Virus record (IMG/VR): IMGVR_UViG_3300046740_000473
Coordinates: 1-21,009 of that record
Length of the DNA stretch: 21,009 nucleotides
Source: a virus
Strand: one strand, 5' to 3'
Shown: positions 821 to 19,667 of the stretch, piece by piece
Numbering within the stretch: position 1 is the first letter of the stretch
Layout of the letters: every line of letters starts with the position of its first letter
The notes under the pieces: model-generated
Seen by the model: the letters and a program-made list of their open reading frames with translations, nothing else
Databases searched by the model: none
What the model was told of the DNA's origin: nothing
Translations under genes and position numbers: made by a program

Positions 821-1747
821 ATGCGGAAGATCGCCATCATCGGGACAGCCCCAGCCTCGCGCGCCGTCACGCCGTTCGACGACGCGTCGTGGGACATCTG
901 GGTGTGCAGCCCGGGCAACATGAACCAGGTCAAGCGGGCGACGGTGTGGTTCGAGCTCCACTCCCTCGTGGAGATGCAGGCGGAGGAGAACCGCGGTTGG
1001 TCGGTCGGCTACCTGGGCTGGCTCAAGGCGCAGCAGTTCCCTGTCTACATGCAGGAGCCAAACGATTGGGTGCCGCAGGCGACGATCTTCCCGTACAAGA
1101 AGCTCATCACGCACTTCGGGACGCGCAACTGGTTCACGTCCTCGCCGGCGTGGATGCTGGCGTTCGCGATCTACCAGATGACTGCGGGCGACGAGCTCGG
1201 CATCTTCGGCGTCGACATGGCGGCGGCGCAAGAATACTACACTATGCAGAAGGGCGGGCTCATCTACTGGATCGAGCGCGCGCAGGCGCTGGGCATCAAG
1301 GTGACGATCCCGATGGAGTCGTGCCTGGGCATGCCGACGCCGCTCTACGGCTACAGCGAGTCCTCGCGCTTCGGCCGGCGCATGAACGTCATGCACAAGC
1401 TCACGTCCGAGAGCATGGCCAACCTCCAGCAGCAGCACAACAACATCGCCCAGCAGATCGCCTTCCACCAGGGCGCGCTGGAGTCGCAGGCGTACTTCAT
1501 GCGCACGGCGCTGGACGGCCTGGACGACGCCGAGATCGACCACGCCGAGGCGCGCACGGTCATCAGCAAGGCGGAGACGACGTGGCCGGTCGATGAGACT
1601 AAGGGCACGACCTTCAGGATGGATGACAGCGGCGTGCTCGTGCCCGTGAAGCCGAACGGCGGATACTCAGTCACGGAGGGGACGGGCAGCGCCAGACCTG
1701 AGGAGCACCACAAACACAAAGTCAGTTCGGAGGATGCGCCGCTGTGA
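821..1747 (+). CDS. Rossmann-like phage protein, paralogue A
   Basis: A 308-aa protein starting with a beta strand and a glycine loop (IAIIGTAPAS), followed by a hydrophobic strand (WDIWVCSPGN) and WFELH, which suggests a nucleotide- or nucleotide-sugar-binding Rossmann-like fold. Other landmarks are a FTSSPAWM segment, an E-L-G-I-F-G-V-D-M strand, and PLYGY followed by a Gln-rich probable coiled coil (about residues 195-235). It is clearly paralogous to the protein at 2055, which shares the landmarks in the same order, but has about 60 extra C-terminal residues. AAAGGA at 809-814 is 6 nt from the ATG. Its stop overlaps the next start as GTGA. Function unknown; DUF115/MptE-like or glycosyltransferase-related folds are the nearest idea, at low certainty. 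Confidence 0.72.
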   Translation: MRKIAIIGTAPASRAVTPFDDASWDIWVCSPGNMNQVKRATVWFELHSLVEMQAEENRGWSVGYLGWLKAQQFPVYMQEPNDWVPQATIFPYKKLITHFGTRNWFTSSPAWMLAFAIYQMTAGDELGIFGVDMAAAQEYYTMQKGGLIYWIERAQALGIKVTIPMESCLGMPTPLYGYSESSRFGRRMNVMHKLTSESMANLQQQHNNIAQQIAFHQGALESQAYFMRTALDGLDDAEIDHAEARTVISKAETTWPVDETKGTTFRMDDSGVLVPVKPNGGYSVTEGTGSARPEEHHKHKVSSEDAPL

Positions 1748-2055
1748 CGATCTTCGTCGAGGAATACACGGGCATCGCGCCATCGAACCGCCCGGAGCGG
1801 TTCCAAGGGACGCCGCAGCTCGGCTCTACAGCCCAGGCCGTAACACAGGTCTCGTCTGGCGGTGCCGTCTCGACGGTCGCGCTCGCGGCCAATACCCAGT
1901 TCGTCGCGCTCATGGGCACGGCGAACGGGTTCTATATTTTCGGTGGATCGAGCACCGGCTCGACGGCTGCCGGCTCGACCTACTTCATCCCGCCGAACAC
2001 GCAGATACTTCGCGGCGTGAAACCGTTAAGCAAGATTTTCGTCTGGAGCACATGA
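1744..2055 (+). CDS. Small beta-rich virion-type protein
   Basis: A 103-aa protein beginning at GTG 1744, whose start overlaps the upstream stop by 4 nt (GTGA), so it is probably translated by coupling. It is rich in Ser, Thr, Gly and Ala with short hydrophobic strands (TQFVALMG, FYIFGG, TYFIPPNTQILRG), the look of a compact beta-sandwich decoration or fibre protein. It sits between the two paralogous Rossmann-like genes. There is no signal peptide or catalytic motif. I do not recognise the family; virion association is inferred from composition and context. Confidence 0.62.
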   Translation: MTIFVEEYTGIAPSNRPERFQGTPQLGSTAQAVTQVSSGGAVSTVALAANTQFVALMGTANGFYIFGGSSTGSTAAGSTYFIPPNTQILRGVKPLSKIFVWST

Positions 2056-2792
2056 TGGGCCGCAGGGTTGCACTCATCGGCACGTGCCCGTCGGGCCAAC
2101 TGGCGCTCCATCTCCCGCCGGAATGGGAGCTGTGGGTATGCAGCCCGGGCAATGACACGTTTCCGCGCATTGACCTGTGGTTCGAGCTGCACGGAGACCT
2201 CGACTTCCCGGGGGAGGACTTCCGGTCATACATCGCCTGGCTGAACCAACAAGAGTTCCCGCAGATGGTCCACCGCACGGACCTCTTCCCGCGCGGTCGG
2301 AGGTTCCCCATCGAGGACATGGTGAAGGAGTTCGGCGACTTCTTCTTCACGTCGCAGCCGGCGCTGATGTTCGCCTACGCGCTGAGCCAGCAGCCCGAGG
2401 AGATAGGCCTGTTCGGCCTCGACATGCAGGCCAACAGCGAGTACGCGCACCAGAAGCCCGCGATGTTGCACTTCGCGTGGCTGGCGATGCAGCGCGGCGT
2501 GCGCGTGCTGTGCCCGGACGAGTCCGAGGCGCTCATCCCGATGCCGATTTATGGCTATAACTTGAACTCGCCCATCGGGCGCAAGCTCCGGGTGCGCTCG
2601 ATCGAGTTGAGGAATGAGATCACGAAGCTCGACGCGCAGATCGCGCGGCTGAGCGAGAAGCGCACCCACTTCCGCGGAGCGCTCGACCAGAACGAATGGG
2701 CCATGCAGACGTGGACCCACGGGCTCTACCGCGAAACGGGTGATGTCCAGCAGGTGGCGCCCCACCGGCCGCACCTTGTGAAGGAGGTTTGA
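2055..2792 (+). CDS. Rossmann-like phage protein, paralogue B
   Basis: A 245-aa paralogue of the 821 product. In order it shares an N-terminal strand and loop (VALIGTCPSG), LWVCSPGN, WFELH, FP, FG-FFTS-PA, an EIGLFGLDM strand, EY--QK, P-PIYGY, GRKLRV and a Gln/Glu-rich probable coiled coil before an FRGAL segment. Two adjacent ATGs exist (2052 and 2055). GGAG at 2045-2048 is 6 nt from 2055 and 3 nt from 2052, so I chose 2055; 2052 would give an ATGA overlap. A longer in-frame reading from about 1734 only shadows the 1744 gene. A nucleotide- or sugar-related enzyme is possible but no catalytic residue can be assigned. Confidence 0.72.
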   Translation: MGRRVALIGTCPSGQLALHLPPEWELWVCSPGNDTFPRIDLWFELHGDLDFPGEDFRSYIAWLNQQEFPQMVHRTDLFPRGRRFPIEDMVKEFGDFFFTSQPALMFAYALSQQPEEIGLFGLDMQANSEYAHQKPAMLHFAWLAMQRGVRVLCPDESEALIPMPIYGYNLNSPIGRKLRVRSIELRNEITKLDAQIARLSEKRTHFRGALDQNEWAMQTWTHGLYRETGDVQQVAPHRPHLVKEV

Positions 2793-2794
2793 CC

Positions 2795-3265
2795 ATGCCG
2801 TACTACGCAGTACCAGGTAACCAAGGCACCGTCGCCGCCGGCTACAAGACCGGCGCCCAGATAAACGCCTCCGGCACGACCAAGCGCACGAAGGTGTACG
2901 AGATCATGGTCGGGCCCACCGGCGCGCCGAACGCGACCGACTGCTCGATCCAGTTCGACGTAAGCCGCATCACGGCGACGGGCGCGGGCGCGTACACGAC
3001 GTGGACGCCCACGCTGCTCGACCCGGCGGACGGCGCGGCCGTCACCGTGGCCGGCATCAACGCCACGGCGGAAGCGACGGCGATCACCGCGAACTCCTCG
3101 GTCTGGAACGAGGGCGTCAACCAGCGCAACTCGCTCCGCTGGGTGGCGCCGCAGGAGAGCCAGTACCTCATCGGCCCCGCGGTCGCGAGCAACGGGTTCG
3201 TCCTGCGCGCCCTCTCCGCGACCTACGCCAGCTCGGTGAGCACGCAGTTCAGCTTTCAGGAGTGA
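2795..3265 (+). CDS. Phage structural-type protein (possible decoration)
   Basis: A 156-aa protein with one of the best ribosome binding sites in the window: AAGGAGG at 2781-2787, 7 nt before ATG 2795. A TTG at 2789 is in frame but too close to that site. Landmarks include KVYEIMVGPTGAPNATDC, a Thr/Ala-rich middle (TWTPTLLDPADGAAV) and NQRNSLRWVAPQESQYLIGPA, a pattern I associate with a recurrent small phage virion family whose function is uncertain. There is no signal peptide. The strong site suggests high expression, fitting a structural protein. Position upstream of the connector supports head or surface decoration. Confidence 0.65.
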   Translation: MPYYAVPGNQGTVAAGYKTGAQINASGTTKRTKVYEIMVGPTGAPNATDCSIQFDVSRITATGAGAYTTWTPTLLDPADGAAVTVAGINATAEATAITANSSVWNEGVNQRNSLRWVAPQESQYLIGPAVASNGFVLRALSATYASSVSTQFSFQE

Positions 3266-7621: not shown

Positions 7622-9325
7622 GTGTCCTTCCAGGGGCAAGGCTTCCAGGGCAACGGCTTCCAAGTCGGATTGCCCGGCGCCTATCCCTTCACGCCGGCGA
7701 CCAACACCTCATACATCGAGGGGCTCCCTGACAGGGTAAGGCTCGTCCTTTATCAGGGGTTGGCCGTGGCGCCGTCCCCGCCAACGGCCGCGACCGTCAC
7801 GCCCATCACCGCCGGTCTGCAGGACATCGACAAGGCGTTCCGCGGGCGGTTCGTAGCGCCGCAGCTCCAGTTCTCCACCTTCACGCAGAACGACCAGCGC
7901 ACGGCGACGCCCATCACGGCTGGCATACAAGACTTCGATGCTGCGCAGCGCCGCCGCATGCTGGCCGCACCACAGGATATATCCTTCGCACGCTCGCAGG
8001 CTGCGTCCTTCGAGACCGAGGGCTTCGACGACTTCGACCAGATCATCATCCGGCGCCCACGCGTGCCGCCGCAGGATGTCACCTTCACGCTGTTCACCCA
8101 GGCCCAGTTCGAGACGGAAGGCTTCGACGACTTCGACCAGTTCGTGCGGCGGCTGCCCGGCGTGCCGCAGATGTTCTCCGGCTTCGCCACCATCAGCGGC
8201 GTCATAGCCTCTACGCCCATCACGGCGGGGATCCAAGGCTTCGACCAGACGGCGCGTGCCCGCCTGCGGCTCTTGCAGGAGATCACGTTCACCGCCTTCG
8301 TCTCCACGTTCCCCGAGAGCGAGGGATGGGACGACTTCGACGTGCTGCAGCCGGCCCGGCGCAAGCTCCCGCTCTGGGACATCACGACGTCGTACCCGAC
8401 GACTGCCGCCACGGTTACGCCGACCACGGCCGGCGTCGAACCCACGTTCGGCCCGCTGTTCAAACGGCCCTACCTGGACCACCTCCACGTCACCTACCCG
8501 AGCAACCAGAGCGCCGTGGCGCAGACGCCCATCACGGCAGGGTTGCAGGACTTCGACTATCGGTTCCGGCCGCAGTTCAAGGCGCCGCAGTTCCAGTTCT
8601 CCGGGTTCATCGTCTTCGACACGCGGGCGGCGACGCCATTCACGGCCGGCGTCCAGGACTTCGACCTTGCCTCGTTCAGGCGGCCGGCGCGCATCCAGGA
8701 CTTCGGCGCCTCGCTCATCAGCCAGATCCGGGCCATCACGGCGGGCATCCAGGGCTTCGACGCTACAATTAGCGCCAGGTCCAGGAGGCCGGAAGGCTTC
8801 CCGCCCGTCCTGACGCCTGCCGCCGCGGCTACGGCGGGCGTACAGAGCGTTGAGGCGCTCCTACGCCGTAGGAGCCAGGCCGACCAGTTCAACGCGTCCG
8901 TGGCCAGCCCTGCGGCCGCCACGGCCACGCCAATCACGGCGGGGCTTCAGGACCTGGACTACCGCTTCGTGCGTCCGTTCCGGCCGGCGCTCCAGCAGGT
9001 CACGAGCTACGCCCCGGCCAACATCGTCCTGGCCATCACCCCCTCGCCGTTCCAGTTCGCGGTCTCCGGCCTGCCGCCCTTCCGGTACGGCATGAGGGTG
9101 AGCCTCCAGACGTTCGAGTCGCGCGGGCAGAACGTCGGGATCAAGTTCATCGTCCACGTGCCGGCCGAGTCGGGCCTTTTGACGCCCGTCGTGCTGACGG
9201 CTACAAGTGCGGTGACGACGCTCTCGGGGCTGAGCGCACCGCCTACGTTGGGCGGCACCGATGCCGACCCGGACCTCAGCGGCCAGGAATCAGACCCGGA
9301 CCTCAGCGGCGAGGTGGAGAACTAG
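7622..9325 (+). CDS. Long repeat protein with TAG(I/L)QDFD repeats, probable fibre or surface protein
   Basis: A 567-aa protein from GTG 7622 (AAGGG at 7609-7613, 8 nt upstream). After a Gly/Gln-rich start (QGQGFQGNGFQ), residues 61-446 hold about twelve units of 31-36 aa, each with a core such as PITAGLQDFD or FETEGFDDFD, then an Arg-rich stretch and an APQ-x-FS-F strand. TAG/TEG/SEG positions are about 63, 99, 132, 165, 201, 233, 269, 305, 341, 373, 404 and 439. Residues 470-535 form a non-repeat beta domain, and the acidic end carries two DPDLSG copies. I recognise no family. A repetitive beta shaft is inferred. It directly precedes the connector gene. Confidence 0.72.
   Translation: MSFQGQGFQGNGFQVGLPGAYPFTPATNTSYIEGLPDRVRLVLYQGLAVAPSPPTAATVTPITAGLQDIDKAFRGRFVAPQLQFSTFTQNDQRTATPITAGIQDFDAAQRRRMLAAPQDISFARSQAASFETEGFDDFDQIIIRRPRVPPQDVTFTLFTQAQFETEGFDDFDQFVRRLPGVPQMFSGFATISGVIASTPITAGIQGFDQTARARLRLLQEITFTAFVSTFPESEGWDDFDVLQPARRKLPLWDITTSYPTTAATVTPTTAGVEPTFGPLFKRPYLDHLHVTYPSNQSAVAQTPITAGLQDFDYRFRPQFKAPQFQFSGFIVFDTRAATPFTAGVQDFDLASFRRPARIQDFGASLISQIRAITAGIQGFDATISARSRRPEGFPPVLTPAAAATAGVQSVEALLRRRSQADQFNASVASPAAATATPITAGLQDLDYRFVRPFRPALQQVTSYAPANIVLAITPSPFQFAVSGLPPFRYGMRVSLQTFESRGQNVGIKFIVHVPAESGLLTPVVLTATSAVTTLSGLSAPPTLGGTDADPDLSGQESDPDLSGEVEN
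7802..8959 (+). repeat. Region encoding about twelve degenerate 31-36-residue protein repeats
   Basis: Each unit opens with a core related to ACGCCCATCACGGC followed by codons for G-(I/L)-Q-(D/G)-F-D. Well-preserved copies begin near 7799, 7909, 8213, 8526 and 8931. Units near 8008 and 8107 use a variant FETEGFDDFD core and are close to each other in sequence. Periods cluster at 32-33 and 35-36 codons. DNA identity between units is mostly low outside the core, suggesting old duplication followed by divergence, with the two FETEG units possibly more recent. Confidence 0.8.
9266..9310 (+). repeat. Perfect 18-bp direct repeat encoding DPDLSG
   Basis: The 18-mer GACCCGGACCTCAGCGGC occurs at 9266-9283 and again, identically, at 9293-9310, a 27-bp period. 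It encodes the acidic DPDLSG motif twice at the extreme C-terminus of the repeat protein. Unlike the older internal repeats it is identical at DNA level, so it is young or under slippage. Only GAGGTGGAGAAC and the stop follow before the connector gene. Confidence 0.85.
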
Positions 9326-16742: not shown

Positions 16743-17099
16743 ATGCTAGGATTAGGTAGGCATGGTGAGGCAGGGCGGGGCGTGGCGCGGCATGGCGTGG
16801 CGTGGCGAGGCGGGGCAGGCCGCGCTAGGCCGGGCGGTTCTAGGCGAGGTCAGGCGGGGCTCGGCTTGGCAGGCGAGTCATGGCAAGGCCCGGCGGGGCA
16901 CGGCAAGGCACGGCGGGGTAAGGCTTGGCAGGCATGCCGGGGCCCGGCAGGGCCCGGCATAGCACGACCGGGTCGGTTTTGGCAGGTGTGGCGCGGCGCG
17001 GCCGGTCAAGGCGTGGCTCGGCTGGGCTGGGCAGGCGAGGCGTGGCTCGGTAGGCCCCGGCGCTCTGGCGCAAGGTGGGGCTTGGCATGGCAGGCAACA
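16743..17099. repeat. GGCNN-type pentamer array, copy 2 (about 350 bp, noncoding)
   Basis: This gene-free stretch between DUF2460 and DUF2163 consists almost entirely of 5-nt units of the form GGCNN on the + strand (GGCGT-GGCGC-GGCAT-GGCGT-GGCGT-GGCGA early on), with occasional 1-nt phase slips and drifted units. It begins right after the stop codon with ATGCTAGG and ends just before the DUF2163 ribosome binding site. A strong bulged hairpin is embedded: ATGCCGGGGCCC (16934-16945) against GGGCCCGGCAT (16950-16960). Two frames are open through it, but their products are simple-sequence Gly/Ala/Arg/Trp strings without a ribosome binding site, so I treat it as noncoding. Confidence 0.85.
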
Positions 17100-17113
17100 G
17101 GGGAGGCTTCACC
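17100..17113 (+). promoter_or_regulatory. Ribosome binding site that fixes the DUF2163 start
   Basis: GGGGAGG at 17100-17106 is 7 nt before GTG 17114. Earlier in-frame starts at GTG 17075 and ATG 17087 lie inside the end of the pentamer array and have no better site. The protein family also normally begins close to this point. Confidence 0.65.
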
Positions 17114-18043
17114 GTGAAGCCTTTTCCCGTCGGCTTAGATGTCCTGCTCGCGAGCAAAATCTACGTCTTCGCAGACATTTATCAGTTCGCGCTCAGCGAC
17201 GGCGTGACCTTTCTCCGCTTCACGACGAGCGACGCTGATGTGCTCTACGCTGGTAGCATCTGGACCTCGAAGGGTCCGTACTTCGACAGCGTCAACTCAA
17301 AATCGCGTGGTCATTGGAAGAGCGGTTTAGACATCGACTCGTGGCAGGTCCTAGTCGCGCCGGCTCCTGCGGACCCGATCACTGGCGCGGCTTACCCGGC
17401 TAAGATTTTAGGGCAGCCATGGCTCGCTGCGGCTCGCGCTGGCGCGTTGGACGGCGCGGTGGTCGACATCCATAGGTGTTACTGGGCGGCGTGGCCGGCG
17501 TGGCCTATTCCCGCGCCGGGGCAGATGATTCCAGCCTACGTGTTGGTAGACATCTTCGCCGGGCGCGTAGCTGCGGTGGACCTCACGCGCACCGAGGCCA
17601 TCATCACGGTCAACAGCCACATGGAGATACTGGCGCGCTCGATGCCGCGCAACACCTACCAGGCCGGCTGCCGGTGGACGCTCTTCGACGCCGGCTGCAC
17701 GCTCTCTCGCGCGGGGTTCGCGGTCGCCGGCACTGTCGGCGCCGTGACCTCGAACGGGACGTTCAACACGAGCCTCGTGCAGATCGCCGACTACTTCTCG
17801 CTCGGCATGCTCACGTGGACCTCCGGCGCCAACGTAGGGTTCTCGCGCGCCATACGGAAGTACACCGGCGCCGCGGGTGGCACCACGCTCATCGCGCCCA
17901 TGCCATACACGGTGGCGCCGGGGGACGCGTTCAACGCTTACCCGGGCTGCGACAAACAACTCTCGACGTGCACGAATAAGTTTTCAAACCAAAATAATTT
18001 CGGTGGTCAACCATTTATCCCATCTCCAGAAACGGCTATATAA
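17114..18043 (+). CDS. DUF2163 / BR0599 family tail protein (GTA gp13-like) with recoded 3' end
   Basis: A 309-aa protein with the DUF2163 N-terminal half (LASKIYVFADIYQFALSDGVTFLRFT) and the BR0599-type C-terminal half (YQAGCRWTLFDAGCTLSRAGFAVAGTVG, then YPGCDKQLSTCTNKFSNQNNFGGQPFIP). Paired cysteines are typical and bind iron-sulfur or zinc in gene transfer agent homologues. It acts in the tail hub below the distal tail ring. From about 17975 to the stop the DNA is AT-rich, unlike the rest of the gene. The last ten codons (PFIPSPETAI) recur with synonymous changes at 18516-18545, the probable ancestral end, displaced by the HNH element. The protein remains full length. Confidence 0.8.
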   Translation: MKPFPVGLDVLLASKIYVFADIYQFALSDGVTFLRFTTSDADVLYAGSIWTSKGPYFDSVNSKSRGHWKSGLDIDSWQVLVAPAPADPITGAAYPAKILGQPWLAAARAGALDGAVVDIHRCYWAAWPAWPIPAPGQMIPAYVLVDIFAGRVAAVDLTRTEAIITVNSHMEILARSMPRNTYQAGCRWTLFDAGCTLSRAGFAVAGTVGAVTSNGTFNTSLVQIADYFSLGMLTWTSGANVGFSRAIRKYTGAAGGTTLIAPMPYTVAPGDAFNAYPGCDKQLSTCTNKFSNQNNFGGQPFIPSPETAI

Positions 18044-18513
18044 TCAGGGATATGAAATGCATTGGATGCGACGTATCAAAGTCAATCATCGAATTCAAGG
18101 CCATGAAGCGTGGCCGAAAAGTCGTTCTGACAAAGTGCCGCCGGTGCCGCAACAAGCTTCATGCGGCCTATTTGGCCAACCGCGAAGCGCGGATCGCATC
18201 ATCGACGGCAGCCAACCGAAAAGACCCAGAAAAACGTCGGCTCTATATGAACGCCTACATGGCGTCTATCAGGGACGAGATATTTGCGAAGCTTGGATGT
18301 CGGTGCGTTCGATGCGGCTTTGCCGATCGGAGAGCGCTTCAGATCGACCATGTCAATGGCGACGGCTACCTAGAACTAAGGCGCAAGCTCAATACCTTCA
18401 AATATCTAAAGAGAGTCATCGCGGACAAAAAAGGTCGCTACCAAATCCTTTGCGCCAACTGCAACTGGATCAATCGCCACGAACAGGGCGAGCAACCGAA
18501 TCGTCGGGGCTAA
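17975..18513 (+). mobile_element. HNH endonuclease element inserted at the DUF2163 3' end, with recoded flank
   Basis: The AT-rich segment from about 17975 to 18513 contains the end of the DUF2163 frame plus the HNH gene. It is followed by a second copy of the DUF2163 terminus. The two copies of PFIPSPETAI are 505 bp apart. The element therefore appears to have brought a synonymous replacement for the codons it cut off, keeping DUF2163 intact. The left boundary is approximate, judged from base composition; the right boundary is the HNH stop. Confidence 0.65.
18052..18513 (+). CDS. HNH endonuclease (probable free-standing homing endonuclease)
   Basis: A 153-aa protein with an N-terminal four-Cys zinc site (C3-x2-C6 and C29-x2-C32), a basic linker and an HNH fold: C85-x2-C88, D99-H100 in LQIDHVNGDG, then YQILCANCNWINRH with C134-x2-C137, N138 and H143. 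This is the usual layout of phage HNH nucleases that nick or cut DNA to drive their own spread. AGGG at 18046-18049 is only 2 nt from the ATG, so expression may be low or coupled to the upstream stop 8 nt away. Base composition is AT-richer than neighbours, consistent with transfer. Confidence 0.82.
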   Translation: MKCIGCDVSKSIIEFKAMKRGRKVVLTKCRRCRNKLHAAYLANREARIASSTAANRKDPEKRRLYMNAYMASIRDEIFAKLGCRCVRCGFADRRALQIDHVNGDGYLELRRKLNTFKYLKRVIADKKGRYQILCANCNWINRHEQGEQPNRRG

Positions 18514-18548
18514 TGCCGTTCATCCCGAGTCCGGAGACGGCGATATGA
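18513..18548 (+). pseudogene. Stranded ancestral 3' end of the DUF2163 gene
   Basis: Codons 18516-18548 read PFIPSPETAI-stop, identical at protein level to the current end of DUF2163 but with different third positions in most codons (CCG for CCA, TTC for TTT, GAG for GAA, AGT for TCT) and TGA in place of TAA. The TGA overlaps the ATG of the NlpC/P60 gene as ATGA, the coupling expected of the original gene pair. It is now separated from the body of its gene by the HNH element. Confidence 0.75.
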
Positions 18549-19012
18549 CCGCAGCCGATGATTTCTCGCGCGACCCCTTCGAGGAACAAGAGCGGGCGAA
18601 CGTGGTCCGCATCGCGATGGAGTGGGAATGCACGCCTTACATCCACCAAGGCCGCATTAAGGGCAAGGCGGCAGACTGCACGTTCTTCGCGAAAGTCTAC
18701 GAGGAGGCCGGGCTGCTGCCAGCCATCACCATCCCGTTCTATTCGCACCAAGCGCACCTAAACCGGCAGGGCTCGATGTACCTGCCGATCGTGGAGAAGC
18801 ACGCCAAGCGGGAAATCACTGAGGCCGAGGCGCGCCCTGGCGACGTGGTGATGTACTTCATCGCGCGCTCGTGGTCGCACGGGGCGATCATCATCGAGCC
18901 GGGCTTCCCGTCGATCATCCACGCGGACATGGCGGCGAAGTTCGTCATCCGCGGGGAGGGCGACCAGGGCTTTTTCAAGAACGTCCCGCGCCGCTACTTC
19001 TCATGGTGGTGA
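18545..19012 (+). CDS. NlpC/P60 family peptidase of the tail tip (GTA gp14-like)
   Basis: A 155-aa peptidase with catalytic Cys in AADC45TFFAKVYEEAGL, His in SWSH112GAIII and a third polar residue, H126, in IIHAD. RPGDVVMYF (97-105) is the strand preceding the His. The enzyme cleaves peptidoglycan stem peptides, helping the tail cross the cell wall. It lies between DUF2163 and the tip protein as in the gene transfer agent (the methyltransferase intervenes here). The ATG overlaps the stranded DUF2163 stop (ATGA). After the HNH insertion, ribosomes arriving from DUF2163 end about 500 nt earlier, so coupling may be weakened. I see no strong separate ribosome binding site. Confidence 0.85.
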   Translation: MTAADDFSRDPFEEQERANVVRIAMEWECTPYIHQGRIKGKAADCTFFAKVYEEAGLLPAITIPFYSHQAHLNRQGSMYLPIVEKHAKREITEAEARPGDVVMYFIARSWSHGAIIIEPGFPSIIHADMAAKFVIRGEGDQGFFKNVPRRYFSWW

Positions 19013-19016
19013 TATA

Positions 19017-19667
19017 ATGTTCCGAGCACTTGATCTTTTTTGCGGTGCTGGCGGTGCGTCGATGGGCATGCACCGCGCTGGCTTCGACGTGATCGGCGTC
19101 GATATCAAGCGCCAGCCGCGCTACCCGTTCACCTTCGTGCAGGCCGATGCGCTGAAGTCGCCGTTCGACCTCGACTCGTTCGATTTCATCTGGGCAAGCC
19201 CGCCATGTCAGCGATGGACCGCGCCTGTGCAACAGCGTGGAATTGCCCACCTCTACCCAGATCACATCGAGCAAGTCCGATCTGCATTAACTGCTAGCGG
19301 TGTTCTCTACTCCATCGAGAATGTCCCGCGATCGCCTGTGCGTGCGATAATCATTCTCTCCGGCTGTATGTTTGGCATGAGCACATATCGGAAGCGTCAT
19401 TTCGAGACAAACTTTCTCGTATTAGCTCCACGGCCTGGCGCACCATTCGGTCCTAAGACGCGGGCGGATGCCGTAACGGTCTCTGGATCAAGCGGTGGCA
19501 AGAGCAATCGTGACTATTGGACGAACAGTAGGAAAAACGCGTGGCAATCTGCCATGGGTATCGACTGGATGACTAACGCGGAAATGGCCCAGTCGGTGCC
19601 GCCTATCTACGCGGAATTTATCGGCCGCGCCGCTATCAAATATCTGAGTAGCGCTACCAATGGCTAA
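19017..19667 (+). CDS. DNA (cytosine-5) methyltransferase, short phage form
   Basis: A 216-aa protein carrying the C5-MTase motifs in order: I (LDLFCGAGGASMGMHRAGF, 5-23), IV with the catalytic Cys (SPPC64Q), VI (E101-N-V), an RKRHFE motif VIII-like segment (125-130) and X (PPIYAEFIG, 195-203). Only about 50 residues separate VIII from IX/X, so the target recognition domain is very small and specificity cannot be inferred. Usual length is 300-400 aa. No restriction enzyme gene is nearby in the window, so protection from host restriction is plausible. It splits the NlpC/P60-tip pair and its last two thirds are AT-richer, suggesting insertion. The ribosome binding site is weak. Confidence 0.83.
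   Translation: MFRALDLFCGAGGASMGMHRAGFDVIGVDIKRQPRYPFTFVQADALKSPFDLDSFDFIWASPPCQRWTAPVQQRGIAHLYPDHIEQVRSALTASGVLYSIENVPRSPVRAIIILSGCMFGMSTYRKRHFETNFLVLAPRPGAPFGPKTRADAVTVSGSSGGKSNRDYWTNSRKNAWQSAMGIDWMTNAEMAQSVPPIYAEFIGRAAIKYLSSATNG

Follow-up and report, generated by a model that had tools for sequence, protein, structure and literature searches.

Homing genes that sit in essential genes usually persist hidden in introns or inteins. A different anatomy has been described for mobile ORFs (mORFs) of fungal mitochondria, found in atp6 of Allomyces macrogynus and in atp6, atp9, cox2 and nad3 of Glomus, in which an inserted C-terminus is followed by an endonuclease and then by the native C-terminus, the two copies sharing about 64-81% DNA identity and encoding near-identical protein (PMC3630166). 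Among phages, ShiLan carries an unspliced, out-of-frame HNH gene in a methylase gene, which has been considered as a possible intron signature; the first 11 in-frame residues of the insertion resemble the 11 residues that follow it, the likeness being weaker in DNA, and the repeat is not read there as a substitute gene segment (PMC11855218). The mob genes of T4 and the HNHEs of lactococcal Skunavirus, for which the available excerpts describe no substitute gene terminus, are free-standing HNH genes beside conserved genes and have a patchy distribution (PMC2988022, PMC12724721). A literature search covering papers available without subscription returned no report of a free-standing phage HNH gene that comes with a substitute terminus.

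The locus described here lies in a window of 21,009 nucleotides of viral DNA, the whole stretch that was analysed. Like the fungal mORFs, it places an endonuclease ORF between two gene termini, one inserted and one native, with the protein conserved and the DNA diverged (PMC3630166). Unlike them, it is a free-standing HNH gene in tailed phages, whereas the fungal elements encode LAGLIDADG or GIY-YIG endonucleases in mitochondria; the phage elements also include N-terminal mirror forms. Judged from sequence, the window element works like an mORF and is not a member of the mORF lineage. The anatomy as such is already known from fungal mitochondria, and what appears to be new is free-standing phage HNH genes with substitute termini. 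With the T4 mob genes and the Skunavirus HNHEs it shares the free-standing HNH gene, the conserved neighbours and the patchy distribution. The ShiLan insertion is internal to its gene, whose frame stays open through it and gains extra residues; in the window the exact gene end is re-formed and has its own stop. Reading the ShiLan repeat as a substitute segment would nonetheless account for it.

Anatomy of the duplicated tail-gene end

The decapeptide PFIPSPETAI followed by a stop is encoded twice on the plus strand, at 18011-18043 (copy 1) and 18516-18548 (copy 2), with an HNH gene at 18052-18513 in between. Copy 1 reads CCA TTT ATC CCA TCT CCA GAA ACG GCT ATA TAA and copy 2 reads CCG TTC ATC CCG AGT CCG GAG ACG GCG ATA TGA. 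The two agree in 10/10 residues and 24/33 nucleotides and differ in seven of the ten sense codons and in the stop, serine being encoded by TCT in copy 1 and by AGT in copy 2. The gene that now ends in copy 1 (17114-18043, plus strand) encodes a DUF2163/phiJL001 Gp84-like tail (baseplate hub) protein with matches to PF09931 (1.7e-23), PF09356 (2.9e-25) and the tail assembly family phrog_778 (7e-50); its start was set at the GTG at 17114, an upstream GTG at 17075 being a possible alternative. Its C-terminus appears to have been rebuilt by a substitute AT-rich coding segment (17975-18043), recognised by a drop in GC3 and by codon match to relatives, of which copy 1 is the functional, recoded end. 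The left edge of the segment is approximate, the drop in GC3 falling between about 17954 and 17981.

Eight nucleotides separate the copy 1 stop from the HNH start, and two separate the HNH stop from copy 2, the HNH gene making up 462 of the approximately 470 bases between the copies. It is a separate ORF encoding 153 aa, with its own start and stop, lying beyond the TAA at 18043 that closes the DUF2163 frame. The HNH stop overlaps an ATG as TAATG (18511-18515), and this ATG is in frame with the stranded copy, forming a mini-ORF, MPFIPSPETAI-TGA (18513-18548), that may couple translation to the NlpC/P60 tail peptidase gene (18545-19012, plus strand), whose start overlaps the TGA of copy 2 as ATGA (18545-18548). 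The peptidase assignment rests on a match to PF00877 at 2.4e-4, slightly below the curated cut-off, and on 71% amino acid identity with the gene immediately after DUF2163 in the relative L056. The first-pass annotation had reported the repeat on both sides of the HNH gene, the ten matching residues in mostly different synonymous codons with TAA exchanged for TGA, and the ATGA overlap, and each of these was recovered at the same positions.

Native and substitute gene ends

Searches of viral and genome contigs with single window proteins returned no related loci, and 129 relatives of the DUF2163 end, from viral and bacterial contigs, were obtained with degenerate patterns that represent this end at the DNA level. 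Each of the 129 has one gene end, and the 3 kb downstream of it contain no second copy. The DUF2163 end leads directly into NlpC/P60 in the nearest of them (L056, L079, L053 and L006), the DUF2163 protein of L056 being 70% identical in amino acids to that of the window. The gene end of uninterrupted relatives reads ...NFGG.PFIP.PE... and is followed by NlpC/P60, as the first-pass annotation had predicted. Over 30 nt, the DNA of the relatives is closer to copy 2 in 103 cases and to copy 1 in 13, with 13 ties (n=129); the opposite outcome, relatives' ends matching the recoded copy, had been named beforehand as evidence against the proposal, as had both copies at a locus lacking the HNH gene, of which there is no instance among the 129. 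Because of this resemblance, copy 2 can be regarded, as had been proposed, as the original 3' end of the gene, stranded behind the HNH gene, a status also favoured by its gene-like GC3 of 0.80 and by the ATGA overlap that it keeps. The broader proposal, in which an HNH gene entered near the 3' end of a tail gene with a substitute end of its own and left the ancestral end stranded, gains support accordingly from the same comparisons.

Composition sets the substitute segment apart from everything around it. GC3 is 0.20 in copy 1 and 0.32 over 17966-18040, against 0.82 in the DUF2163 body, and GC content is 37% in the segment 17966-18043 against 64% in the body. The HNH gene has a GC3 of 0.62 and a GC content of 52%, which contradicts the earlier suggestion that copy 1 shares its base composition. 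At matched residues, copy 2 has the same codon as relatives in 58% of cases versus 32% for the substitute segment (17981-18040), and in this comparison of codons the left boundary is not sharp. None of the 129 relatives ends in PFIPSPETAI, the nearest being PFIPSPETAL in L009, which argues that copy 1 came from the same gene or a very near relative and not from a diverged orthologue; no plausible DNA donor of copy 1 was found among the 129 either (best 47/66 nt). Copy 1 thus appears to derive from the DUF2163 gene itself, or from a very near relative, under purifying selection. Since the relatives have single ends and include neither PFIPSPETAI nor a donor, the protein end was preserved while its DNA changed.

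Four relatives with long gaps between DUF2163 and NlpC/P60 (L035, L091, L095 and L129) were considered as second cases and rejected, their gaps holding unrelated ORFs and no second gene end. In L035 a short beta-propeller-like ORF (WVINPDGTGRTQLTNAPSPSNNDDPAWSPDG) at 781-1030 lies between DUF2163 and NlpC/P60, a different gene at the same junction of an otherwise uninterrupted relative, with the gene end not duplicated.

The HNH protein

The protein between the two copies has an N-terminal CxxC..CxxC motif, followed by helices and a C-terminal HNH core (C85, C88, H100, C134, N136, C137). It matches the HNH endonuclease family phrog_2255 (5e-14) and other HNH PHROGs and has no Pfam match; among 38 HNH relatives, four match PF01844 and six match PF02945, and H100, C85, C88, C134 and N136 are invariant. 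An AlphaFold2 model (pLDDT 87.6) has a beta-beta-alpha core, and HNH nucleases predominate among the solved structures closest to it, namely DotN, Cap5, T4 EndoVII, Gme HNH and GVE2, as weak matches (all Z < 5, Foldseek E 0.2 or worse); a search by sequence found no relative of solved structure. Going by its motifs and the predicted fold, the protein can be assigned to the HNH endonuclease superfamily. An unannotated HNH gene that is 50% identical to the window HNH core lies in L131 (MW202497.1, 3900-4240), where it and the 3' end of the portal gene overlap in different frames, and no repeated portal end was found there.

Recurrence among related HNH loci

Viral contigs were scanned three times with HNH profiles, which yielded 210 distinct related loci; this total includes the window and a few database matches. 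As a simple scan for duplicates without frame control was noisy in GC-rich DNA (8/85 versus 15/680 at a score of at least 50), peptide repeats at the element edges were sought in a frame-aware scan, with a score threshold of at least 50 chosen after seeing the data. Duplicate ends were found at 6 of the 210 HNH loci, including the window, versus 1 of 367 control ORFs, the sole control positive being a tandem methyltransferase paralogue pair. An exact match of ten residues plus stop, in the right frames and at both element boundaries, is not credible as a chance event. Since only 6/210 loci have duplicates, most relatives would be intergenic insertions or would have lost the trace.

The other cases vary in which part of the host gene is rebuilt. 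L155 has a C5-methyltransferase gene (C5-MTase, PF00145) whose initial 15 codons are left behind upstream of the HNH gene; a complete version begins anew in an ATGA overlap with the HNH stop, and 7/13 comparable codons in it are changed. In L175 an N-terminus is rebuilt in the same way, its start overlapping the HNH stop as GTGA, with 9/13 codons changed. These two loci can be read as mirror-image cases with recoded N-termini, and L168, in which the start of a DUF4326 gene is handled likewise but less cleanly, is probably another. In L191 a stretch with the PCQPFS motif of a methyltransferase is repeated on either side of an out-of-frame HNH gene, with 19/24 codons changed; the C5-methyltransferase frame stays open right through the HNH gene (1652-3190), resembling the published ShiLan element, and an additional methyltransferase-like C-terminal fragment lies upstream, out of frame. 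Weaker candidates are L172, with two similar, non-identical gene starts, and L200, with a repeated HTH-like stretch. When the six cases are pooled, 52 codons differ against 45.0 expected from independent codon choice, an excess short of significance (P = 0.055); divergence close to independent choice means that recoding need not exceed full drift, and selection for recoding is not proven by this count.

No second copy of the window element was found at the DUF2163 site, including by a scan for the right junction (TRATG + PFIPxPE), which matched six loci, all unrelated. Prophage searches of 385 and 397 genomes recovered DUF2163 relatives in 11 genomes and no HNH relative. With one known copy of the window element, homing at the DUF2163 site is argued from the analogy with Korravirus.

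Korravirus phages with and without the element

When the HNH protein of L191 was used as a query against annotated phages, 22 Arthrobacter records matched, and those fetched were all Korravirus. The HNH gene of these phages sits after DNA polymerase I, at its 3' end. In HNH-free Korravirus, pol I ends in ...GVDAK-PWNK-stop (CCC TGG AAC AAG TAG), whereas in HNH-bearing phages it ends in EWNR-stop or IWNGGK-stop, followed by the HNH gene, and the native CTGGAACAAGTAG is found at or beyond the 3' end of that gene; in several, the native pol I end supplies the last codons and stop of the HNH gene itself. Presence and absence at one site in near-identical genomes is seen in Wayne (HNH-bearing) and CallieOMalley (HNH-free), whose flanking sequences agree at 99.8% and 99.9% and are separated in Wayne by a 428-bp insertion, through which pol I acquires EWNR-stop in place of PWNK-stop; divergence begins just after GCGAAG, and identity returns at CTGGAAC. 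As the pol I sequence is present in 105 Arthrobacter records and the HNH element in about 22 of them, the element is polymorphic. Identity between the window HNH and those of Korravirus is only about 30% (30% over 138 aa, 6e-12, for that of Suppi). From these alignments, the Korravirus pol I element has the architecture of the window, in phages that have been isolated and whose empty site is known. Nancia (L392) and DrRobert (L408) form a second with/without pair, within the species Korravirus drrobert, in which PWNK-stop is exchanged for IWNGGK-stop.

Proposed mechanism and alternative explanations

The window most likely contains a mobile nuclease element that is of the homing type, needs neither intron nor splicing, and has a rescue terminus built in. 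What is established is its anatomy, which of the copies is native, that uninterrupted relatives exist, and that related HNH loci, near-isogenic with/without pairs included, are arranged alike; cleavage, immunity and mobility we infer. The element would consist of a substitute end of about 20 recoded codons plus stop, upstream of the free-standing HNH gene, and, seated in the conserved 3' end of the DUF2163 gene, it would spare its host from killing by means of that end. Its entry would have replaced the native codons from the left junction (about 17954-17981) to 18515; the gene body would then read into the substitute end, with the same protein and different DNA, and the final 33 nt of the original gene would be left stranded past the HNH stop. 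With a replacement gene end carried along, splicing is not needed. The HNH protein may cut the intact native motif (the NFGGxPFIPxPE region) in co-infecting element-free phages, with the element-bearing copy serving as the template for repair of the break. The synonymous changes, together with the splitting of the target, would leave the resident locus poorly cleavable and would also block recombination between the copies, by which the HNH gene could otherwise be excised. The TAATG/ATGA chain would maintain translational coupling to NlpC/P60. In the synthetic home-and-rescue (HomeR) and Cleave-and-Rescue drives the rescue copy is reportedly recoded. The element would work like these drives, which combine a nuclease with rescue of the targeted essential gene; they are engineered Cas9 drives and not homologues of the window element (PMC7968924, PMC7951863).

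The origin of the substitute end is the sole point that separates this reading from co-conversion, in which the gene end of an AT-richer phage, lying beside an HNH gene, was carried in by recombination and the apparent recoding is orthologue divergence. Such an origin deserves tentative consideration, given that copy 1 is AT-rich relative to the gene, that synonymous divergence is close to saturation and that horizontal transfer is preferred for the same anatomy by the authors of the fungal mORF study (PMC3630166). It sits less well with ten residues and a stop position that are all identical when no relative ends in PFIPSPETAI, with the absence of a likely donor from the 129 relatives, and with a copy 1 composition that is unlike the HNH gene as well. 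The same mode of entry could also have left a passenger whose HNH protein is now domesticated or inactive. Decay is frequent for free-standing phage HNH genes and a single example of the window element was found, but the HNH frame is open, its conserved HNH residues (H100, C85, C88, C134, N136) are retained and its core is confidently modelled, and a decayed state is considered unlikely.

Explanations without a mobile gene end fare worse. One is a tandem duplication of the gene end, without a role in mobility, followed by an ordinary intergenic HNH insertion; in its favour are the many HNH genes found between structural genes of phages and the rarity of duplicates among HNH relatives. The copies, however, lie exactly at the element edges, both here and in Korravirus, near-isogenic HNH-free Korravirus have a single end without duplication, and none of the 129 relatives has the two copies in the absence of an HNH gene, which makes this sequence of events very unlikely. 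A group I intron or other spliced element, in which the segment between the copies leaves the mRNA and its 5' end resembles the downstream exon for reasons of splicing, would find precedent in the HNH genes that phage group I introns often house and in the intron weighed for a similar duplicated stretch in ShiLan (PMC11855218). Its probability is nonetheless minimal: Rfam returned no intron match and no catalytic RNA core, group I or group II, in 17500-19200 of the window, nor any intron match in five analogous loci, nearly all of the DNA between the copies is HNH gene, leaving scarcely any non-coding space, and copy 1, with its own stop, gives an intact protein without splicing. An intein was rejected because the host frame stops at 18043 and the HNH gene is a separate ORF, and an insertion of the ShiLan type because that frame is closed by the copy 1 TAA before the HNH gene.

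Wider occurrence and significance

The presence of rebuilt C-termini and mirror-image N-termini in several phage lineages suggests repeated evolution. Beyond the window, the balance tips slightly towards phages carrying recurring splicing-free homing elements, drawn from one small HNH lineage, whose substitute C- or N-termini are immune to their own nuclease and which have colonised essential genes, that is, natural home-and-rescue drives. If true, this would be a third route, besides introns and inteins, by which homing genes can reside within conserved phage coding sequence. Korravirus offers sequenced, isolated and near-isogenic phages suited to direct tests of cleavage, self-immunity and drive. 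For annotation, the lesson is that some short 'intergenic' scraps next to HNH genes are gene ends left stranded, and that close phages which differ at a C-terminus may do so because an element has entered.

Other features of the window

Between the DUF2460 and DUF2163 genes, at 16743-17100, lies a GGC-rich degenerate tandem tract of 74% GC with periods of 5, 10 and 20 bp (TRF), an odd spacer for a tail module. Immediately after NlpC/P60, at 19017-19667, the tail module includes a C5-cytosine methyltransferase gene (PF00145, phrog_363) that is missing from the other DUF2163 loci fetched. A 567-aa protein encoded at 7622-9325 contains repeated TPITAGIQDFD-like units, pointing to several rounds of internal duplication.
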